A DNA stretch of 27,096 nucleotides from a virus. Below the pieces are notes generated by a model, which was not told the DNA's origin, ran no database searches, and saw only the letters and a list, made by a program, of their open reading frames with translations. The position numbers and the translations under genes were made by a program. Location of the stretch: positions 1 to 27,096 of IMG/VR virus record IMGVR_UViG_3300043397_000048, one strand, 5' to 3'. Shown here in pieces: positions 2,816 to 25,367 of the stretch; position 1 is the stretch's first letter; every line of letters begins with the position of its first letter.

Positions 2816-3146
2816 CACTGATAAAACACCTCCAAGTGTGGGTGATCTTCGAATGAATGAAGACACCCTTACTATGGAGATCTACAGTGGTGCTGCTTGG
2901 AAATCTATTCACCCGATTAAACCAACACCAAAAGTTTTCAAGAAGAAGTTTGTTGTCGCTGGTAACTATGGTCAATACAAATATTGGCTATCGCAGAAAG
3001 GTTACATGGCACATGAATACATATACGTTAGTGATGTGAATATGATGCGTGGGATTGAAAACCCAACAGGATTTTTCGTTGGCACTTATGAACAAAGACC
3101 TGACATTGATGAAATTAAAATGCAAATAAGAATTGCACAAAGGTAA
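2781..3146 (+). CDS. Phage conserved protein with probable TTG start (121 aa)
   Basis: The first ATG (2853) would remove TDKTPPSVGDLR, which with the following NEDTLTMEIYSGAAW forms a typical phage structural-repeat motif (G-D-L-R ... D-T ... Y-x-G-x-A-W). TTG 2781 is in frame, with GGAGGA at 2768-2773 seven bases before it, so it is chosen as the start. The C-terminal half (VVAGNYGQYKYWL ... YIYVSDVNMMRG ... FVGTYEQRPDIDEI) recalls a small domain of unknown role found in many T4-like phages. The gene ends just before the Acb1-like gene. Confidence 0.65.
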   Translation: MQPLPTLRYRSNTDKTPPSVGDLRMNEDTLTMEIYSGAAWKSIHPIKPTPKVFKKKFVVAGNYGQYKYWLSQKGYMAHEYIYVSDVNMMRGIENPTGFFVGTYEQRPDIDEIKMQIRIAQR

Positions 3147-3147
3147 T

Positions 3148-3642
3148 ATGGAACTCGCTACACTATCACAATACGCACGACACAAAGACGGTACATACGT
3201 TTCTCTCCTGATGGACAAAGCATCACGAGATTTGCTTGATGTTTTCACAACAAACAATCTTGGCTTGACTGAGAAAGTTCATCCAGATAGCTATCACTGT
3301 ACTGTTATCTACTCACGTACACCTGTACCAAACGCTGAGATAATCAAGTACCCAACAAAGGTAGTTGCTCACGTAATGGGTTATGATGTGTTCACTACCA
3401 AAGATGGTGGTAAGTGTTTGGTGATGCGACTACATTGCCCACAAGCATTCAGTTTGAATTTGGTTCTGAATAAACTCGGTGCCACATCTGATTATGATGA
3501 GTACAAACCACACGTGACTATCAGTTACAACTACACTGGCGAAATCGATCCTACTCAGTTGCCCATCCCACAGTTTCCACTGGTCTTTGACGACCATGAG
3601 GTTTCGCCCTTGGACCCCCAGTTTGTCCCTGGAAATGCTTGA
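3148..3642 (+). CDS. acb1: 2H phosphodiesterase, Acb1-like anti-CBASS protein
   Basis: The 164-residue product has the paired H-x-T motifs of 2H phosphoesterases: H50-C-T52 in SYHCTVIYS and H122-V-T124 in YKPHVTISYN. Length, motif spacing (72 residues) and flanking text (ATL near the start, YDVFTTKDG before the second motif) match the T4 gp57B/Acb1 family as I remember it. Acb1 degrades the cyclic di- and trinucleotides made by CBASS, blocking abortive infection. Start ATG 3148 has AAAGG (3139-3143) upstream; TTG 3133 is less likely. It is the last gene of the P1 operon, followed by a terminator. Family call is strong; in vivo role is inferred. Confidence 0.85.
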   Translation: MELATLSQYARHKDGTYVSLLMDKASRDLLDVFTTNNLGLTEKVHPDSYHCTVIYSRTPVPNAEIIKYPTKVVAHVMGYDVFTTKDGGKCLVMRLHCPQAFSLNLVLNKLGATSDYDEYKPHVTISYNYTGEIDPTQLPIPQFPLVFDDHEVSPLDPQFVPGNA

Positions 3643-10442: not shown

Positions 10443-11375
10443 ATGAATGAATTGAAGATCGTTGTTTCCCCTGTTGTGAATGGTAAGACTGAAATCCGTA
10501 TCGGTGACAAGTTGGTTACTACTGGGAAGACTGGTCGTGGTCTGGAAGAAGTGATTGAATTCCACTATCGCAAGCTGACAGGTGTAAAGAAGGGTTTCGA
10601 CGAGATCATGGGTTCTACCACTATCGCTGAACCTAAGGTTGAAAAGTTCGGTATCAATGCTCGCTTCGGTTTCGTTGAGAAATTGGTCTCCATGGTCGCT
10701 GCAGGTGTTCAGCCTTCTGCCGTTATTACTGGTGAAGGTGGTCTGGGTAAGACTTATACAGTGGAAAAGACTCTGTCTGATGCTGGTTACTCCAATATCT
10801 CTTCCCTCGCTGACTTCGAAGTCGGTGCTGTAATCAATACTCGTAAGTGTTTCACTACAGTTAAGGGTTACTCCACTGCTAAGGGTTTGTATCGTACTCT
10901 GTTCGAGAACAACAAGTCCATTATTGTGTTCGATGACTGTGACGCTGTTCTGAAAGACCCAATCGCTCTGAACCTGTTGAAAGGTGCATTGGACTCATAC
11001 GGTAAACGTATCATCTCTTGGAATGCCGATATGCGTGATGACGATCTGCCACGTTCTTTCGAGTTCACTGGTCGTGTTATTTTCATCTCCAACATGGGTC
11101 AAAACAAGATTGACCAAGCTATCCGTAGCCGTTCCATGATGATTGACCTGTCCATGACCCTTGACCAGAAGATCGAGCGTATGGAGACTATTGCAATGGC
11201 AGATGAGTTTCTTCCAGAGTATGACAAGACCATTGTTCAGGATGCATTGGAGCTGATCCGTGAAATCAAGGACGAGTGCAAAGAGATCTCTCTCCGTACT
11301 CTGATCGCTGTATCCAAGGTTCGTGCTTCCAATAAAGACTGGAAAGACCTCGCTAGCTACATGTTGACTGTATAA
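10443..11375 (+). CDS. AAA+ family ATPase (phage ATP-binding protein)
   Basis: The start is ATG 10443, the first ATG after P4. The 310-residue protein has Walker A GEGGLGKT at residues 97-104, Walker B IIVFDDCD near 160-167, a sensor segment VIFISNMG, and arginines in IDQAIRSRSMMIDLS suitable as finger residues. The N-terminal 90 residues are phage-specific. The layout resembles a class of stand-alone phage AAA+ proteins of unknown substrate. It is under tandem promoters (10146 and 10383) and followed by a small acidic gene. Confidence 0.88.
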   Translation: MNELKIVVSPVVNGKTEIRIGDKLVTTGKTGRGLEEVIEFHYRKLTGVKKGFDEIMGSTTIAEPKVEKFGINARFGFVEKLVSMVAAGVQPSAVITGEGGLGKTYTVEKTLSDAGYSNISSLADFEVGAVINTRKCFTTVKGYSTAKGLYRTLFENNKSIIVFDDCDAVLKDPIALNLLKGALDSYGKRIISWNADMRDDDLPRSFEFTGRVIFISNMGQNKIDQAIRSRSMMIDLSMTLDQKIERMETIAMADEFLPEYDKTIVQDALELIREIKDECKEISLRTLIAVSKVRASNKDWKDLASYMLTV

Positions 11376-18839: not shown

Positions 18840-19493
18840 ATGAAAAACTTTATATATCATGACTTTGCGAAATTAGAACGTGAAACCTCTCCCGATGGAA
18901 TCCGAGTATACAAGACTCCATCGGGTAAGGCATATCCTTCAGTGACGACTGTTACAGGTCTTCTGAAAAAGAAGGGTATCATGGAATGGCGCAAGAGAGT
19001 AGGTGAAGCAGAAGCGAATCGAATCTCATCAAGAGCAGCAGCACGTGGAACTAGAATCCATACTTACTGTGAAGAGTTTCTATTGGGTAAAGAAATTGAA
19101 CCTGATATGTTTGATGCGCACATGGTCGACCAGATTAAATTCTGGTTGGAGCAGGTAGACAATATTCATGCACTTGAAACTCCATTGTACTCAGACTTCT
19201 TGCAAGTAGCAGGAACTGTTGATTGTATTGCTGAGTTTCAAGGTAAGCTATCTGTCATTGACTTCAAGACATCGAGTAAGCCAAAGGATCGTGATGACAT
19301 TCACGATTACTTCATGCAATGCGCTGCATATGCAGTTGCATTTGAAGAACGAACTAAAATTCCAATTGGGAATCTTGTAATTATCATGGCTGTTGATGAT
19401 GGCGACTCACGTGTATTCCAAGAGAAGCGTGATAACTGGATCGGTGGTTTCAGAAAGTTGCGAATGGATTATCGCAACTGGAAAAACATTTGA
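18840..19493 (+). CDS. PD-(D/E)XK exonuclease (RecB/Cas4/MGME1-like)
   Basis: It starts directly after the endolysin stop. The 217-residue protein has RGTRIHTYCEEFLLG (H74), GTVDCIAEF with D128, and the core VIDFKTSSKP with D141 and K143. A downstream MQCAAYAVAFEE helix follows, of the Q-x3-Y type. This is the motif order of RecB-family nucleases, closest in layout to single-strand exonucleases such as MGME1. It probably acts in phage DNA processing or host DNA breakdown. Its TGA lies in the -35 box of P10. Confidence 0.88.
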   Translation: MKNFIYHDFAKLERETSPDGIRVYKTPSGKAYPSVTTVTGLLKKKGIMEWRKRVGEAEANRISSRAAARGTRIHTYCEEFLLGKEIEPDMFDAHMVDQIKFWLEQVDNIHALETPLYSDFLQVAGTVDCIAEFQGKLSVIDFKTSSKPKDRDDIHDYFMQCAAYAVAFEERTKIPIGNLVIIMAVDDGDSRVFQEKRDNWIGGFRKLRMDYRNWKNI

Positions 19494-19519: not shown

Positions 19520-19693
19520 ATGATTAAGGTTGGTTCTATTTGGTCAGGTAGTGATCATAACCAATTCACTGTTCGTGGTGTTGAGGAACGAGCAGAAGGT
19601 ACTTGGGTATCATATGGTAAGCATGGTGAAGACCGTACTTATGAATGTTTAATTGGTGCTTTCTTAGAGAGATTTAAGGAAGTGCTAGTTTAA
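19520..19693 (+). CDS. Small phage protein (57 aa)
   Basis: GAGG at 19509-19512 is a good ribosome binding site for ATG 19520. The product (IKVGSIWSGSDHNQFTVRGV, then EGTWVSYGKHGEDRTYEC) is a small beta-rich domain of a type common in phages, with no known role. It lies between the exonuclease gene and the tmRNA acceptor piece and ends about 6 bases before that piece. Confidence 0.7.
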   Translation: MIKVGSIWSGSDHNQFTVRGVEERAEGTWVSYGKHGEDRTYECLIGAFLERFKEVLV

Positions 19694-19698
19694 AGAAT

Positions 19699-19761
19699 TG
19701 TTGTAATCCCTTCAAAGCGAAGGACTTCTGGACGTGGGTTCGACTCCCACCATCTCCACCA
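19699..19761 (+). ncRNA. tmRNA acceptor piece (3' part of mature molecule)
   Basis: T stem GTGGG (19734-19738)/CCCAC (19746-19750) closes the 7-base loop TTCGACT. The acceptor strand CATCTCC (19751-19757) and an encoded ACCA (19758-19761) follow. TGTTGT (19699-19704) can pair with GCAACA (19870-19875) of the coding piece, and TTCT (19726-19729) with AGAG (19863-19866), as an interrupted P2-type helix. The 5' boundary is approximate. Confidence 0.9.
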
Positions 19762-19829
19762 AAAGGGCATTACGTAGTAATCAGTAGGTCTTGCAAGGAA
19801 ACGCTGGTGAATGTAGTGCTTCTTCTGAT
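19762..19829 (+). other. Intervening segment of the permuted tmRNA, probably excised
   Basis: This 68-nt segment joins the CCA end to the 5' G of the coding piece. GCATTAC (19767-19773) pairs with GTAGTGC (19813-19819) over 7 bp, stacking beyond the acceptor stem. A competing local hairpin ATTAC/GTAAT spans 19769-19781. Such a loop is expected in permuted tmRNA precursors and is cut out during maturation. Confidence 0.75.
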
Positions 19830-19998
19830 GGGGATGTCATGGTTTCGACAGGGGTAGATAGTAGAGACGGCAACACGGTAGGCGATGACCGTAAATCAAG
19901 CAAATAAAGTAAATGCAAACGACTCTGTCTACGCATTAGCAGCCTAAACGCTGCTTAGGGTTTCGGTGGGTTTCCTCGTAACAGAATTACCCACCACT
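19830..19998 (+). ncRNA. tmRNA coding piece (5' part of mature molecule)
   Basis: It opens with GGGGATG, then the D-arm-like GGTTTCGACAGGG (19841-19853). A hairpin ACGGT (19875-19879)/ACCGT (19888-19892) follows in the place of pseudoknot 1, then the resume region before GCA 19915. The tag stop sits in the loop of AGCAGC (19938-19943)/GCTGCT (19950-19955), as in E. coli. A final stem GGTGGGT (19965-19971)/ACCCACC (19989-19995) probably marks the 3' end. Only one pseudoknot-like element is visible, fewer than in one-piece tmRNA. Confidence 0.92.
19915..19947 (+). other. tmRNA tag reading frame, ANDSVYALAA
   Basis: Resume codon GCA 19915-19917, then codons for NDSVYALAA and TAA at 19945-19947. 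The encoded part of the tag is ten residues long and differs from the E. coli tag ANDENYALAA only at positions 4 and 5. The C-terminal ALAA is the signal read by ClpX and ClpA. The upstream AGTAAAT before GCA matches the conserved frame-setting region. Confidence 0.93.
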
Positions 19999-20017
19999 TT
20001 ATTAACAGGAGAATCAT

Positions 20018-20188
20018 ATGAAGAATATTTTGATCGCATTGATGGTAGCTGCTTTAGCATCACCAGTATTAGCCGTAGAAGCTAAGAAGCCACCAACTAA
20101 AGCTGAAGTTAAAAAGCCAGAAGCAAAGAAGAAGGATCTTGGAGACAAGAAGCCAACTCCAAAGAAGAAAAAATCAGAAGCTAAATAA
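20018..20188 (+). CDS. Small exported Lys/Pro-rich peptide (56 aa)
   Basis: AGGAG at 20007-20011 precedes ATG 20018. A signal peptide (KNILIALMVAALASPVLA, cleavage near residue 19) is followed by a strongly basic, repetitive tail (PPTKAEVKKPEAKKKDLGDK, ending PTPKKKKSEAK). It is probably exported to the periplasm and disordered there. Such peptides could bind the acidic cell envelope or DNA. No family recognised; it follows the tmRNA directly. Confidence 0.65.
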   Translation: MKNILIALMVAALASPVLAVEAKKPPTKAEVKKPEAKKKDLGDKKPTPKKKKSEAK

Positions 20189-20249: not shown

Positions 20250-20528
20250 ATGGCAAACTTAACGCCATTTGAAATCCGTCTTGAACTTCTCAAGATGGCG
20301 AAAGAAATGTTGGAGCAAGACTATTACGGTCTGCGAGAAAAGGTGAGCAACGAGTACGCATCTAAATGCGACTTTGCTAAGGTTAATGGGCAAGCCATTC
20401 CTGAACACCCTGGATTCCCAGCATTCCCAAGCGAAACTGAAGTCATTAAAAAGGCTGCAGAACTAAACAGTTTCGTATCACAAATCCCACAAGCTACACT
20501 AGATAAGGCTAGCAAAAAGTCCACCTGA
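20250..20528 (+). CDS. Conserved phage protein (92 aa)
   Basis: AAAGGAG (20237-20243) before ATG 20250 selects this start. The helix LTPFEIRLELLKMAKEMLEQ opens the protein, then a Pro-rich stretch (PEHPGFPAFPSETEVIKKA) and a C-terminal helix ending DKASKKST. Comparable small proteins occur in T4-like phages of aquatic bacteria, as far as I recall, without a known role. Confidence 0.68.
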   Translation: MANLTPFEIRLELLKMAKEMLEQDYYGLREKVSNEYASKCDFAKVNGQAIPEHPGFPAFPSETEVIKKAAELNSFVSQIPQATLDKASKKST

Positions 20529-20587: not shown

Positions 20588-21106
20588 ATGCGAGTATATA
20601 AAAATATATTCCTAATTATCACAGCAATGGTAATAGCTACTATTACTGCAGTTGCTTATACAAATGAATATAAGTTACTAGACGTAAGATATTCAGAATT
20701 AACAAAAGATGCCAAGAGACAAGTAGATTGTTTGGCAGAAAACATTTATCATGAAGCAGGTCACGAACCAAATAATGGTAAAGTCGCTGTTGCGTTGGTA
20801 ACATTGAACAGAGTGCAAGACCCTCGATATCCAAAAGATATTTGCTCTGTAGTGAAACAGAAGGTAAACTATACATGTCAGTTTAGTTGGTTTTGTATGC
20901 CAGTTAAGCTAGATAAAAGTGGTGATAGATATAGAGAAGCGTTGGAAACTGCGATTCATGTCTACGCTAACTATGAGAAGTTAGAAGATTTTACATATGG
21001 TGCATTATTTTATCATGCAGATTACGTAAACCCTAGATGGAAGTTGCAGAAGACGACTGTTATTGGAAGACATATTTTTTACAAAGAAGGCGGTAATCAA
21101 AAATGA
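20588..21106 (+). CDS. SleB/CwlJ-type cell wall hydrolase with signal anchor
   Basis: AAGGAG upstream supports ATG 20588. An N-terminal hydrophobic helix (IFLIITAMVIATITAVAY) looks like a signal anchor, so the enzyme may be exported by Sec. The catalytic domain matches Hydrolase_2: CLAENIYHEAG (with the key Glu), VALVTLNRV, YPKDICSVVKQK, CQFSWFC, and FYHADYVNPRW at the end. SleB-type enzymes cut peptidoglycan. With the GH19 endolysin it gives the phage two wall-degrading activities. It overlaps the ClpP-like gene by 4 bases. Confidence 0.87.
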   Translation: MRVYKNIFLIITAMVIATITAVAYTNEYKLLDVRYSELTKDAKRQVDCLAENIYHEAGHEPNNGKVAVALVTLNRVQDPRYPKDICSVVKQKVNYTCQFSWFCMPVKLDKSGDRYREALETAIHVYANYEKLEDFTYGALFYHADYVNPRWKLQKTTVIGRHIFYKEGGNQK

Positions 21107-21660
21107 TGCAAAAATTAAATTTACAACTGAAAGATGATCAGTCTCAACATTCCTTCTTTTTGATGATGGAAGAAATTTCATTGGCAACATGTAAGAGTGC
21201 CATTGAATGGATCCTAGAAGCAAACTTCTCTGAAGAACGACCTACCATGATGAACTTAGTTGTTTGTAGTCCAGGTGGTGACTTGAATGCAGCGTTTGCT
21301 TTGATTGATACAATGCGAGGATCTGCTATCCCAATTAGAACAATTGGTCTTGGTCAGATTGCATCTGCTGGCTTGTTAATCTTTATTAGTGGTGAGAAGG
21401 GTCAACGTATCTTGACACCAAACACTTCTATTCTTTCTCACCAGTACTCATGGGGTGCATTTGGTAAGGAACACGAATTGTTTGCCACTGTCAAAGAATT
21501 TGACTTGACAACTAAGAAAATGATTGCGCACTATAAGAAGTGTACTGGCTTGAAAGAAGAACAGATTCGTGAAGTTTTGTTACCACCACAAGACGTGTGG
21601 TTGAGTTCGCTTGAAGCTAAAAAATTGGGGCTATGTGACGATGTTAAAGATCTTAAGTAA
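21103..21660 (+). CDS. clpP: ClpP-like serine protease
   Basis: The 185-residue protein has SPGGDLNAAFALIDTM, GLGQIASAGLLIF with the nucleophile serine at 88, and ILSHQYSWGAFG with histidine 113. PPQDVWLSSLEAKKLGLCDD gives aspartate 164. The ClpP triad therefore looks complete and in the normal order. ClpP forms a barrel protease fed by ClpX or ClpA. In phages, ClpP-like proteins may be prohead proteases or may act with host Clp ATPases; the T4-like genome and its distance from head genes make the second more likely (inference). It lies 1.1 kb downstream of the tmRNA. Confidence 0.9.
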   Translation: MMQKLNLQLKDDQSQHSFFLMMEEISLATCKSAIEWILEANFSEERPTMMNLVVCSPGGDLNAAFALIDTMRGSAIPIRTIGLGQIASAGLLIFISGEKGQRILTPNTSILSHQYSWGAFGKEHELFATVKEFDLTTKKMIAHYKKCTGLKEEQIREVLLPPQDVWLSSLEAKKLGLCDDVKDLK

Positions 21661-23386: not shown

Positions 23387-23604
23387 TGTTTAAAAGCGCA
23401 AACGAATTTTCACTACATATTGAACAGATCGTAAAAGATAAAAAATTATCTTATATGGATGCTGTCCTTGATTATTGTAAAGAGAACTATCTTGAACCCG
23501 ACGATGTTGCCAAGTTAATTAACAAAGCACTCAAAGGTAAGATTGAACTCGATATGCAAGAACTTAATTACTTACCTAAAACGGCAAAGCTGGAAGATTT
23601 TTGA
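23386..23604 (+). CDS. 33: Late transcription coactivator, gp33-like
   Basis: The 72-residue product (LSYMDAVLDYCKENYLEPDD, VAKLINKALKGKIELDMQEL, NYLPKTAKLEDF) matches the short gp33 proteins of T4-like phages in pattern and sits directly before gp59. In T4, gp33 links RNA polymerase and gp55 to the sliding clamp on late promoters; the clamp-binding tail is expected at the C-terminus. It is shorter than T4 gp33 (112 aa). The overlap with both neighbours supports co-translation. Confidence 0.8.
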   Translation: MFKSANEFSLHIEQIVKDKKLSYMDAVLDYCKENYLEPDDVAKLINKALKGKIELDMQELNYLPKTAKLEDF

Positions 23605-24218
23605 TGGATGGTTTTAAAGCATACAAATATTACATGGCTGTGAAGCTGCATTTTACAAAAGATAATTTTGATGTGTTTAAAAATCGTGGTAATATCAAAG
23701 GCACTCGTGAAGCATTTAATGCAAGAAACGATCGGTATGCCTTTGAGAAGTTGGCACGAAAGTTTCCAGTGGATAAAGACTTGATTCAGTTCTACGTTGC
23801 AAATTTTGCATATGGTAATGAATCAGCTGTATATGCCTCTGAAGAAGCTGATACATATTTACTTGAGTGGAATAAACGTAAGCAGTCAATTACCAAGATT
23901 TTCTCTGATGATTGTAACCGTATCCTTATGGATGCTTACAAGAATAAGATTAAAGAAGATGGTATATTTGACTTGACAAATAAGTCATATTCAAGTATAC
24001 TTAAATTATTCCTCGGTAAGCAGATAAGTCTTGAAACTGTTAGGATTCTTGACGACTTTCGCCCGATGGTTGCATCGTGGAAAGAAAATACGTCTATGTT
24101 ATTGTTATGGGAAAACGAGATTCGCAGGATTGAAAAATCCCAAGGTTTCGTTAAGTATGATACCGATAAGGTAGCGAAAGTTTTTAATTCATTTATGGAA
24201 GAAGTTAAAGAGTTGTAA
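23604..24218 (+). CDS. 59: DNA helicase loader, gp59-like
   Basis: The start is ATG 23604 (TGATG overlap with gp33). The 204-residue product begins DGFKAYKYYMAVKLHFTKDN and continues VFKNRGNIKGTREAFNARND and ARKFPVDKDLIQFYVANFAY. This matches the N-terminal domain of T4 gp59, which loads gp41 helicase onto gp32-coated DNA at forks. The C-terminal half is all helical, as expected. Its position next to gp32 and gp33 repeats T4 order. Confidence 0.92.
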   Translation: MDGFKAYKYYMAVKLHFTKDNFDVFKNRGNIKGTREAFNARNDRYAFEKLARKFPVDKDLIQFYVANFAYGNESAVYASEEADTYLLEWNKRKQSITKIFSDDCNRILMDAYKNKIKEDGIFDLTNKSYSSILKLFLGKQISLETVRILDDFRPMVASWKENTSMLLLWENEIRRIEKSQGFVKYDTDKVAKVFNSFMEEVKEL

Positions 24219-24449: not shown

Positions 24450-25367
24450 ATGGATATTCAATCACTACGCAAAATGCGCAACTCTGACTTTGGTGCTATT
24501 TCAAACGCATTCGAAAAAGTCGCAAATCCCCAATCTGAATCTAAGTCTTACAACGACGATCGCTTTTGGCGTCTCGAAGGTGACAAGGCAGGTAATGGCA
24601 CAGCCACAATTCGTTTTCTACCACGTGTAGAAGGTGATGAGTTGCCATGGGTTCGTTTGTTCTCGCATGGTTTCCAAGGTCCAACTGGTAAGTGGTATAT
24701 CGAGAATAGTTTGACTACTCTCGGTGAAAACGATCCTGTTGGTGAATTGAACACCAAACTTTGGAACTCTGGTTCTGAAGCGAACAAAGAGATTGCACGT
24801 AAGCAAAAGCGTAAGTTGGGTTTCACTGCCAACATTTATGTTGTGTCTGACCCTAAGCATCCAGAAAACGAAGGCAAGGTATTCTTGTTTAAGTTTGGTA
24901 AGAAAATCTTTGATAAAATCATGGATAAGGCTCGCCCAACTTTCGAAGACGAGAAGCCAGTCAACGTGTTTGACTTCTGGGAAGGTGCGAACTTTAAACT
25001 TCGCATGCGCAAGAAAGATGGTTTCACCAACTATGATGAATCTTCTTTCAGCGATCCAGCTCCAATCGCTCAGAATGACGAAGACATTCTAGCCATCGCA
25101 AATGCTCAACACAAGTTGTCTGAGTTTACCGATCGCAAGAACTTCAAGTCTTATGATGAGTTGAAGAAGAAACTTGAAGAAGTTTTGTCTGGTGATTCAT
25201 ACTCAGCTCCGTCTGCTGCTCAAATGGCAGAAGAAGATCGTCCTGTTGCTGCTGCTCCAGCATTTACTGCTAAAGCTGCTCCATCGGCAGGTGCTTCTAA
25301 GCCAGCGCCAGCTGATGATGACGATGATGTTATGTCTTACTTCGAGAAGATTGCTCGAGACGAATAA
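24450..25367 (+). CDS. 32: Single-stranded DNA-binding protein, gp32-like
   Basis: AAAGGAAA precedes ATG 24450. The 305-residue product has a basic N-terminal region for cooperativity (SLRKMRNSDFGAISNAFEK), an OB-fold core (DRFWRLEGDKAGNGTATIRF, ELPWVRLFSHGFQGPTGKWY, FTANIYVVSDPKHPENEGKV), a Pro/Ala linker and an acidic C-terminal tail (DDDDDVMSYFEKIARDE). Unlike T4 gp32 it contains no cysteine, so the zinc site of the T4 protein is absent. It coats single-stranded DNA at the fork and recruits gp59. A terminator follows. Confidence 0.94.
   Translation: MDIQSLRKMRNSDFGAISNAFEKVANPQSESKSYNDDRFWRLEGDKAGNGTATIRFLPRVEGDELPWVRLFSHGFQGPTGKWYIENSLTTLGENDPVGELNTKLWNSGSEANKEIARKQKRKLGFTANIYVVSDPKHPENEGKVFLFKFGKKIFDKIMDKARPTFEDEKPVNVFDFWEGANFKLRMRKKDGFTNYDESSFSDPAPIAQNDEDILAIANAQHKLSEFTDRKNFKSYDELKKKLEEVLSGDSYSAPSAAQMAEEDRPVAAAPAFTAKAAPSAGASKPAPADDDDDVMSYFEKIARDE

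Follow-up and report, generated by a model that had tools for sequence, protein, structure and literature searches.

The window, by which we mean the whole 27,096-base virus record analysed here, carries a complete permuted tmRNA gene at 19694-19996 on the + strand. Its proteins include homologues of gp32, gp59, PhoH, an endolysin and a PD-(D/E)XK exonuclease, which identifies the carrier as a T4-like phage, and gp32 places it nearest, among named phages, to HTVC008M, Melnitz and Mosig. The gene order runs from the exonuclease through a 57-aa ORF, the tmRNA, a small ORF, an ORF at 20250-20528, a cell-wall hydrolase and a ClpP-like protease to gp59 and gp32. An earlier note, made from the letters alone, had placed a two-piece tmRNA inside a replication/lysis region of a T4-like phage, and both the region and the type of phage are borne out by these matches. 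The features of the locus are the following:

18840..19493, + strand: PD-(D/E)XK exonuclease, the upstream synteny anchor, common to Melnitz (profile matches)
19694..19761, + strand: acceptor piece, the tRNA-like 3' half with T arm, acceptor 3' strand and encoded CCA (ARAGORN, Rfam and direct reading)
19734-19738/19746-19750, + strand: T stem (direct reading)
19739-19745, + strand: T loop (direct reading)
19751-19757, + strand: acceptor 3' strand CAUCUCC (direct reading)
19758-19761, + strand: ACCA, the encoded CCA ending at 19761
19762..19829, + strand: intervening segment (IVS) of exactly 68 nt, between CCA and G1
19830..19996, + strand: coding piece with acceptor 5' strand, tag reading frame and 3' hairpins (Rfam and direct reading)
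19830-19836, + strand: acceptor 5' strand GGGGAUG (direct reading)
19915..19947, + strand: tag reading frame ANDSVYALAA with stop UAA, resume codon GCA (ARAGORN and direct reading)
19939..19954, + strand: hairpin across the tag stop codon, GCAGC/GCTGC (read from the sequence)
19965..19995, + strand: 3' terminal hairpin of the coding piece, GGTGGGT/ACCCACC, 7 bp (read from the sequence)
21103..21660, + strand: ClpP-like serine protease, 1.1 kb downstream of the tmRNA (Pfam CLP_protease, E 9.8e-28)
23601..24218, + strand: T4 gp59-like helicase loader, a downstream synteny anchor (PF08993, 1.3e-11)
24450..25367, + strand: T4 gp32-like ssDNA-binding protein, a downstream synteny anchor (phrog_224, 1.8e-108)

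ARAGORN and Rfam agree on the identity of the RNA gene. ARAGORN reports a single tmRNA in the window, at 19669-20038 on the + strand, reads it as permuted (tmRNA*) and gives the tag as ANDSVYALAA*. The Rfam model beta_tmRNA (RF01850) matches 19660-20016 over its full length (model positions 1-331) with 158.9 bits and an E value of 1.8e-49, against a gathering score of 84; it is the best scorer of clan CL00001, with a poor fit in the model's terminal hairpin region. The model tmRNA_permuted (RF04321, gathering score 47) matches 19699-19947 over the whole model (1-213) with 152.2 bits and an E value of 1.3e-30. These two matches, both tmRNA, are the ones above gathering score in the window, so that the covariance search on which the earlier note had staked its claim returned significant hits. 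Its span of 19699-19998 was essentially right and is refined here to 19694-19996; we infer a 5' end of the acceptor piece just past the stop codon of the 57-aa ORF, and a 3' end of the coding piece at 19996.

The two pieces are joined by the acceptor stem, in which GGGGAUG and CAUCUCC form seven of seven pairs, the third being G-U. As had been claimed from the letters, this stem forms solely in the permuted order, and the segment between the pieces indeed measures 68 nt. The third-pair G-U (G3:U70) is the alanine identity element of tmRNA, for alanyl-tRNA synthetase. In the predicted fold of the whole precursor the acceptor stem is closed over a hairpin formed by the IVS. A counterpart of the 3' terminal hairpin is present in four relatives (L061, L103, L119 and L136).

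Related loci were gathered from IMG/VR by pattern scans and a protein-guided scan. All seven acceptor pairs are formed in 176 of 177 distinct phage tmRNA genes, and the third pair is G-U in the window gene and likewise in 176 of the 177. The search patterns required CTCCACCA on one strand, which imposes part of pairs 1-4 and leaves pairs 5 and 6 free. There the changes are compensatory: pair 5 occurs as GC, AT, CG, GU or UA and pair 6 as UA, AU, CG or GC. The covariation of the acceptor stem, together with the Rfam and ARAGORN scores, excludes chance as an explanation. The tag is degron-like. Across 173 distinct phage tag contexts its middle varies and its end is mostly kept: 140 contexts end in -LAA and 140 start with AND. 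By these patterns selection acts on the window tmRNA gene, which most likely works, with SmpB from the host. Several collected loci, L217 and L177 among them, show the permuted pattern with ARAGORN tags that are not degron-like and are possibly false or degenerate members.

The window RNA resembles the betaproteobacterial two-piece tmRNA, given that the match to RF01850 is full-length and includes the start of the IVS. In the tree, however, it nests among phage genes, apart from its nearest bacterial relatives: it belongs to a clade of 30 genes, all from phages (support 0.95), and the nearest bacterial gene lies about 1.07 substitutions per site away (22 bacterial genes, short alignment). A recent capture from a host was considered and is not supported, by this tree placement and by the best match in 399 genomes of the order of Variovorax sp. 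WS11, which reaches 84% identity over 105 nt. The acceptor-stem sequence of the window with a gap of 55-85 nt was found in none of the bacterial genomes scanned. A looser acceptor pattern with a gap of 25-55 nt picks up 18 bacterial genomes, mostly betaproteobacteria plus three Stenotrophomonas. These last (L143, L149 and L154) are gammaproteobacterial genomes with a permuted tmRNA that could be prophage-borne or horizontally acquired.

Such a gene might also be an inert passenger from a host genome, taken along for instance in an imprecise excision from an attachment site in the host's ssrA. Integration into tmRNA genes is common, and prophages do contain pieces of ssrA (PMC9004378). The window gene, however, sits in a T4-like replication region, and no integrase was found among the window proteins searched. 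Its position, stems and tag are moreover conserved across a deep phage-only lineage, and the covariation strongly disfavours an inert copy; we therefore consider a passenger origin highly improbable.

The genomic position can be followed in cultured phages. Melnitz, Mosig and HTVC008M are T4-like (Kyanoviridae) phages that, like the window, carry a permuted two-piece tmRNA. The RNA of Melnitz occupies the same position, in the order PDDEXK nuclease, small ORF, tmRNA, gp33, gp59, gp32; in Mosig and HTVC008M several kb separate the RNA from gp32, which follows downstream. This shared placement indicates that the position was already established, and the conserved gene order shows that the tmRNA belongs to these phages over the long term and is no accident. 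The RNAs themselves differ: that of the window is of the beta type, and the Melnitz RNA, which carries a glutamine riboswitch, groups with alphaproteobacterial tmRNAs (PMC9004378). With 1.71 substitutions per site between the window and Melnitz tmRNAs, and the Mosig RNA also far, the same slot holds different tmRNA types, through either deep divergence or replacement. The closest tmRNAs to the window gene (L183 and L187) are on contigs about 165-174 kb long, so the window probably represents part of a similarly sized genome.

The expectation in the earlier note that such a gene was unusual and might be undescribed did not hold. Two-piece tmRNA was reported in Melnitz in 2022, in a study that counted 53 two-piece forms among 133 unique structures of phage tmRNA, with 50 of them originating in marine or aquatic samples (PMC9004378); SsrA is also annotated in Melnitz and Yut2. 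The window gene is thus a further member of the phage two-piece tmRNAs already reported. Permuted phage tmRNAs are found too in the T4-like Stenotrophomonas phages Yut2, Ps15 and BUCT608, where the gene (SsrA in GenBank for Yut2) lies in a tRNA cluster adjoining ribonucleotide reductase genes, and Yut2 has no ClpP. The tmRNAs of mycobacteriophages and Bacillus phage G are one-piece and non-permuted. These RNAs and the RNA of mycobacteriophage DS6A are likewise phage-encoded; the DS6A RNA has no tag frame (PMC4131195), and the window gene has one.

Two other observations concern the carrier. The window encodes at 3133-3642 (+) a homologue of the anti-CBASS nuclease Acb1, a phage counter-defence protein (PF23474, E 1.5e-25), and at 538-1593 and 10443-11375 (+) two AAA ATPases (phrog_2376 and phrog_1250), for neither of which an unfoldase match was seen.

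What looks new at this locus is the linkage to ClpP, along with the protein-coding IVS that is found in relatives and not in the window. The window ClpP scores 97.7 bits against PF00574 (cut-off 20.2), matches bacterial and mitochondrial ClpP chains in PDB from E 3.3e-16 and retains an intact triad, Ser88-His113-Asp164; Ser, His and Asp are found at these places in 131 of 133 homologous loci. Linkage appears from both directions. Starting from ClpP, a tmRNA is present in 41 of 42 relatives with at least 3.5 kb of upstream DNA (40 by ARAGORN and L065 by Rfam). Starting from the tmRNA, PF00574 occurs in 29 of 48 contigs of at least 40 kb, in 18 of them on the tmRNA strand and no more than 3 kb downstream. 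As a rough background, the window ClpP is matched in 139 of 50,697 phage records, a figure obtained with tblastn, which is less sensitive than the contig search. Where fetched loci hold both genes, they share a strand in 102 of 102 cases and lie within 3.5 kb of each other in 101. In a separate lineage (L007, L014 and L056) a divergent ClpP with about 26-27% identity is located some 0.3 kb downstream of a permuted tmRNA, possibly an independent pairing. Our literature search found no paper on a link between phage tmRNA and ClpP.

On this evidence we propose the downstream ClpP as a functional partner of the tmRNA, forming no part of the RNA itself. The two might then act as one module, in which a phage tag and a phage ClpP core are driven by a host unfoldase, and tagged host proteins or failed phage proteins are degraded for amino acids or simply removed. 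The proximity and shared strand, the excess over background, the second lineage, the intact triad and the LAA end of most tags are all in keeping with this. Nonetheless, ClpP is absent from many tmRNA phages. None of the cultured marine T4-like relatives tested has it; among tmRNA-bearing phages it was not found in Melnitz, HTVC008M, Mosig, Yut2 and PA_L9, and the first three show that ClpP is not required. Melnitz in this respect differs from the window. In some genomes the two genes are remote (about 41 kb apart in BUCT-ZZ01 and about 108 kb in L057), and the loci counted are related and hence do not represent independent events. A ClpX/ClpA-type unfoldase domain was absent in 27 of 28 related records searched; the sole ClpX-type match, on contig L226, is accompanied by a bacterial-looking ClpP (E 1e-78) and may be host DNA. 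We regard the module as possible, as a reading that would extend, and does not contradict, that of a working phage tmRNA.

The neighbouring protein could instead be a head-maturation protease unconnected with the tmRNA. Among PHROGs it matches 'head maturation protease' best (E 1.3e-21), and the ClpP of the freshwater Comamonadaceae phage P26059A was read as a prohead protease (PMC5964084). The window gene, however, is located in the replication region between the tmRNA and gp59/gp32, without capsid neighbours, and it matches Pfam CLP_protease and ClpP structures of bacteria and mitochondria. T4-like phages also have their own head protease, gp21. We regard this assignment as unlikely.

No SmpB was found in 55 related phage records or in a first set of 18, with a control that was positive in 10 of 14 genomes and with the window record itself being a fragment. 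The RNA must therefore rely on host SmpB, even though some huge phages do encode SmpB (PMC7162821). For the earlier suggestion that the phage would have its own ribosome-rescue RNA, this means that the RNA is probably as described but the system is incomplete: with no SmpB in the phages tested, rescue would be half host-made. The same absence could suit a decoy, an RNA that sequesters SmpB of the host or stops its trans-translation, the role suggested for the DS6A RNA, and an RNA consisting of the tRNA-like domain alone does inhibit tmRNA (PMC4131195). Unlike the DS6A RNA, though, the phage genes described here keep a complete tag frame, a stop codon and the -LAA end throughout their lineage, features superfluous in a decoy, and we judge this role to be very unlikely.

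The reading we prefer, with good confidence, is that of a working phage permuted tmRNA of the betaproteobacterial structural type that has probably been kept for long in aquatic T4-like phages. In the folded precursor the IVS hairpin would close the acceptor stem, and host tRNA-processing enzymes (RNase P at G1 and 3' processing at the encoded CCA) would cut out the IVS. The two resulting RNAs would stay paired with each other in the acceptor stem and in the long helix P2, and the G3:U70 pair would allow the alanyl-tRNA synthetase of the host to load the CCA end. Together with SmpB and EF-Tu from the host, the RNA would then gain access during infection to ribosomes that have stalled on messages that are cut or lack a stop codon. 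Addition of ANDSVYALAA would allow the ribosome to be released and recycled, and would direct the unfinished protein to ClpP-type proteolysis, in which the ClpP subunit of the phage and an unfoldase of the host probably assist.

The IVS shows a conservation of its own. In the window it forms a long hairpin (predicted fold -19.4 kcal/mol) that brings CCA and G1 together, ends at its 3' side in a conserved box TGAT and contains no ORF in its 68 nt. Its closing stem is displaced by a bulge. Over 167 distinct phage IVS the closing stem covaries: at least 7 of its 8 pairs form in 153, a level that 20% reach once partners are exchanged between genes by shuffling, and at positions 5 and 7 all pair types are seen. 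The segment is 29-42 nt long in the betaproteobacterial and Stenotrophomonas genes examined, as compared with 68 nt in the window and mostly 50-120 nt, up to 200 nt, in phages (ARAGORN coordinates).

Longer segments in relatives frequently contain a reading frame from CCA to G1, defined here by a start at most 30 nt from CCA and a stop at most 12 nt from G1. Such frames occur in 11 of 18 distinct IVS sequences of 130-180 nt (0.12 expected from shuffles) and in 11 of 56 of 90-130 nt (3.3 expected). By their substitution pattern two families are shown to be coding and under purifying selection: a 41-aa predicted membrane protein in L059, L060, L061 and L110 (pS 0.71-0.88 against pN 0.11-0.28 in diverged pairs) and a 50-aa protein in L294, L296 and L300 (pS 0.46-0.88 against pN 0.18-0.21). 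For a family of 26-27 aa the coding evidence is weaker (pS 0.21-0.59, pN 0.05-0.41), and several other frames are known from single examples. Altogether the small proteins, some of them predicted to be membrane proteins, comprise several unrelated families, seen in L059, L060, L061-L064, L110, L087, L096, L294, L296, L300, L304 and others. In L179 (4126-4233, -) and L207 (7743-7847, -), proteins related to that of 41 aa are encoded immediately beside the tmRNA gene instead of within it, which argues for real genes moving in and out of the IVS slot.

In these relatives the start codon is placed about 10 nt past the encoded CCA, and an A/G-rich sequence resembling a ribosome-binding site, such as AAAGGA, makes up one arm of the closing stem. 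All ORF-bearing examples checked retain that stem with 7-8 of 8 pairs. Because the ribosome-binding sequence and the stem arm coincide, RNA processing and translation of the protein may be coupled. A literature search outside subscription journals and preprints returned no paper on IVS-encoded proteins.

Two further loci deserve mention. The IVS of the Melnitz tmRNA (L327) has a candidate ORF with a GGAG ribosome-binding-like site soon after CCA, which extends into the coding piece. Sinorhizobium phage Phosso (L329, 349596-350198) carries a permuted tmRNA missed by ARAGORN and unannotated in GenBank; on inspection, its IVS of about 0.4 kb contained no spanning ORF.

Considered jointly, a tmRNA-ClpP module working with host SmpB and a host unfoldase, and an IVS that serves in relatives as a slot for small genes, make a combined reading that we rate as possible rather than probable. 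If true, a segment that is normally discarded is reused in these relatives for small genes, an unusual nesting of proteins within an RNA gene. The family as a whole offers many natural cases for asking why lytic phages carry tmRNA, with two testable handles: the linked ClpP, and the missing SmpB that would force dependence on the host.
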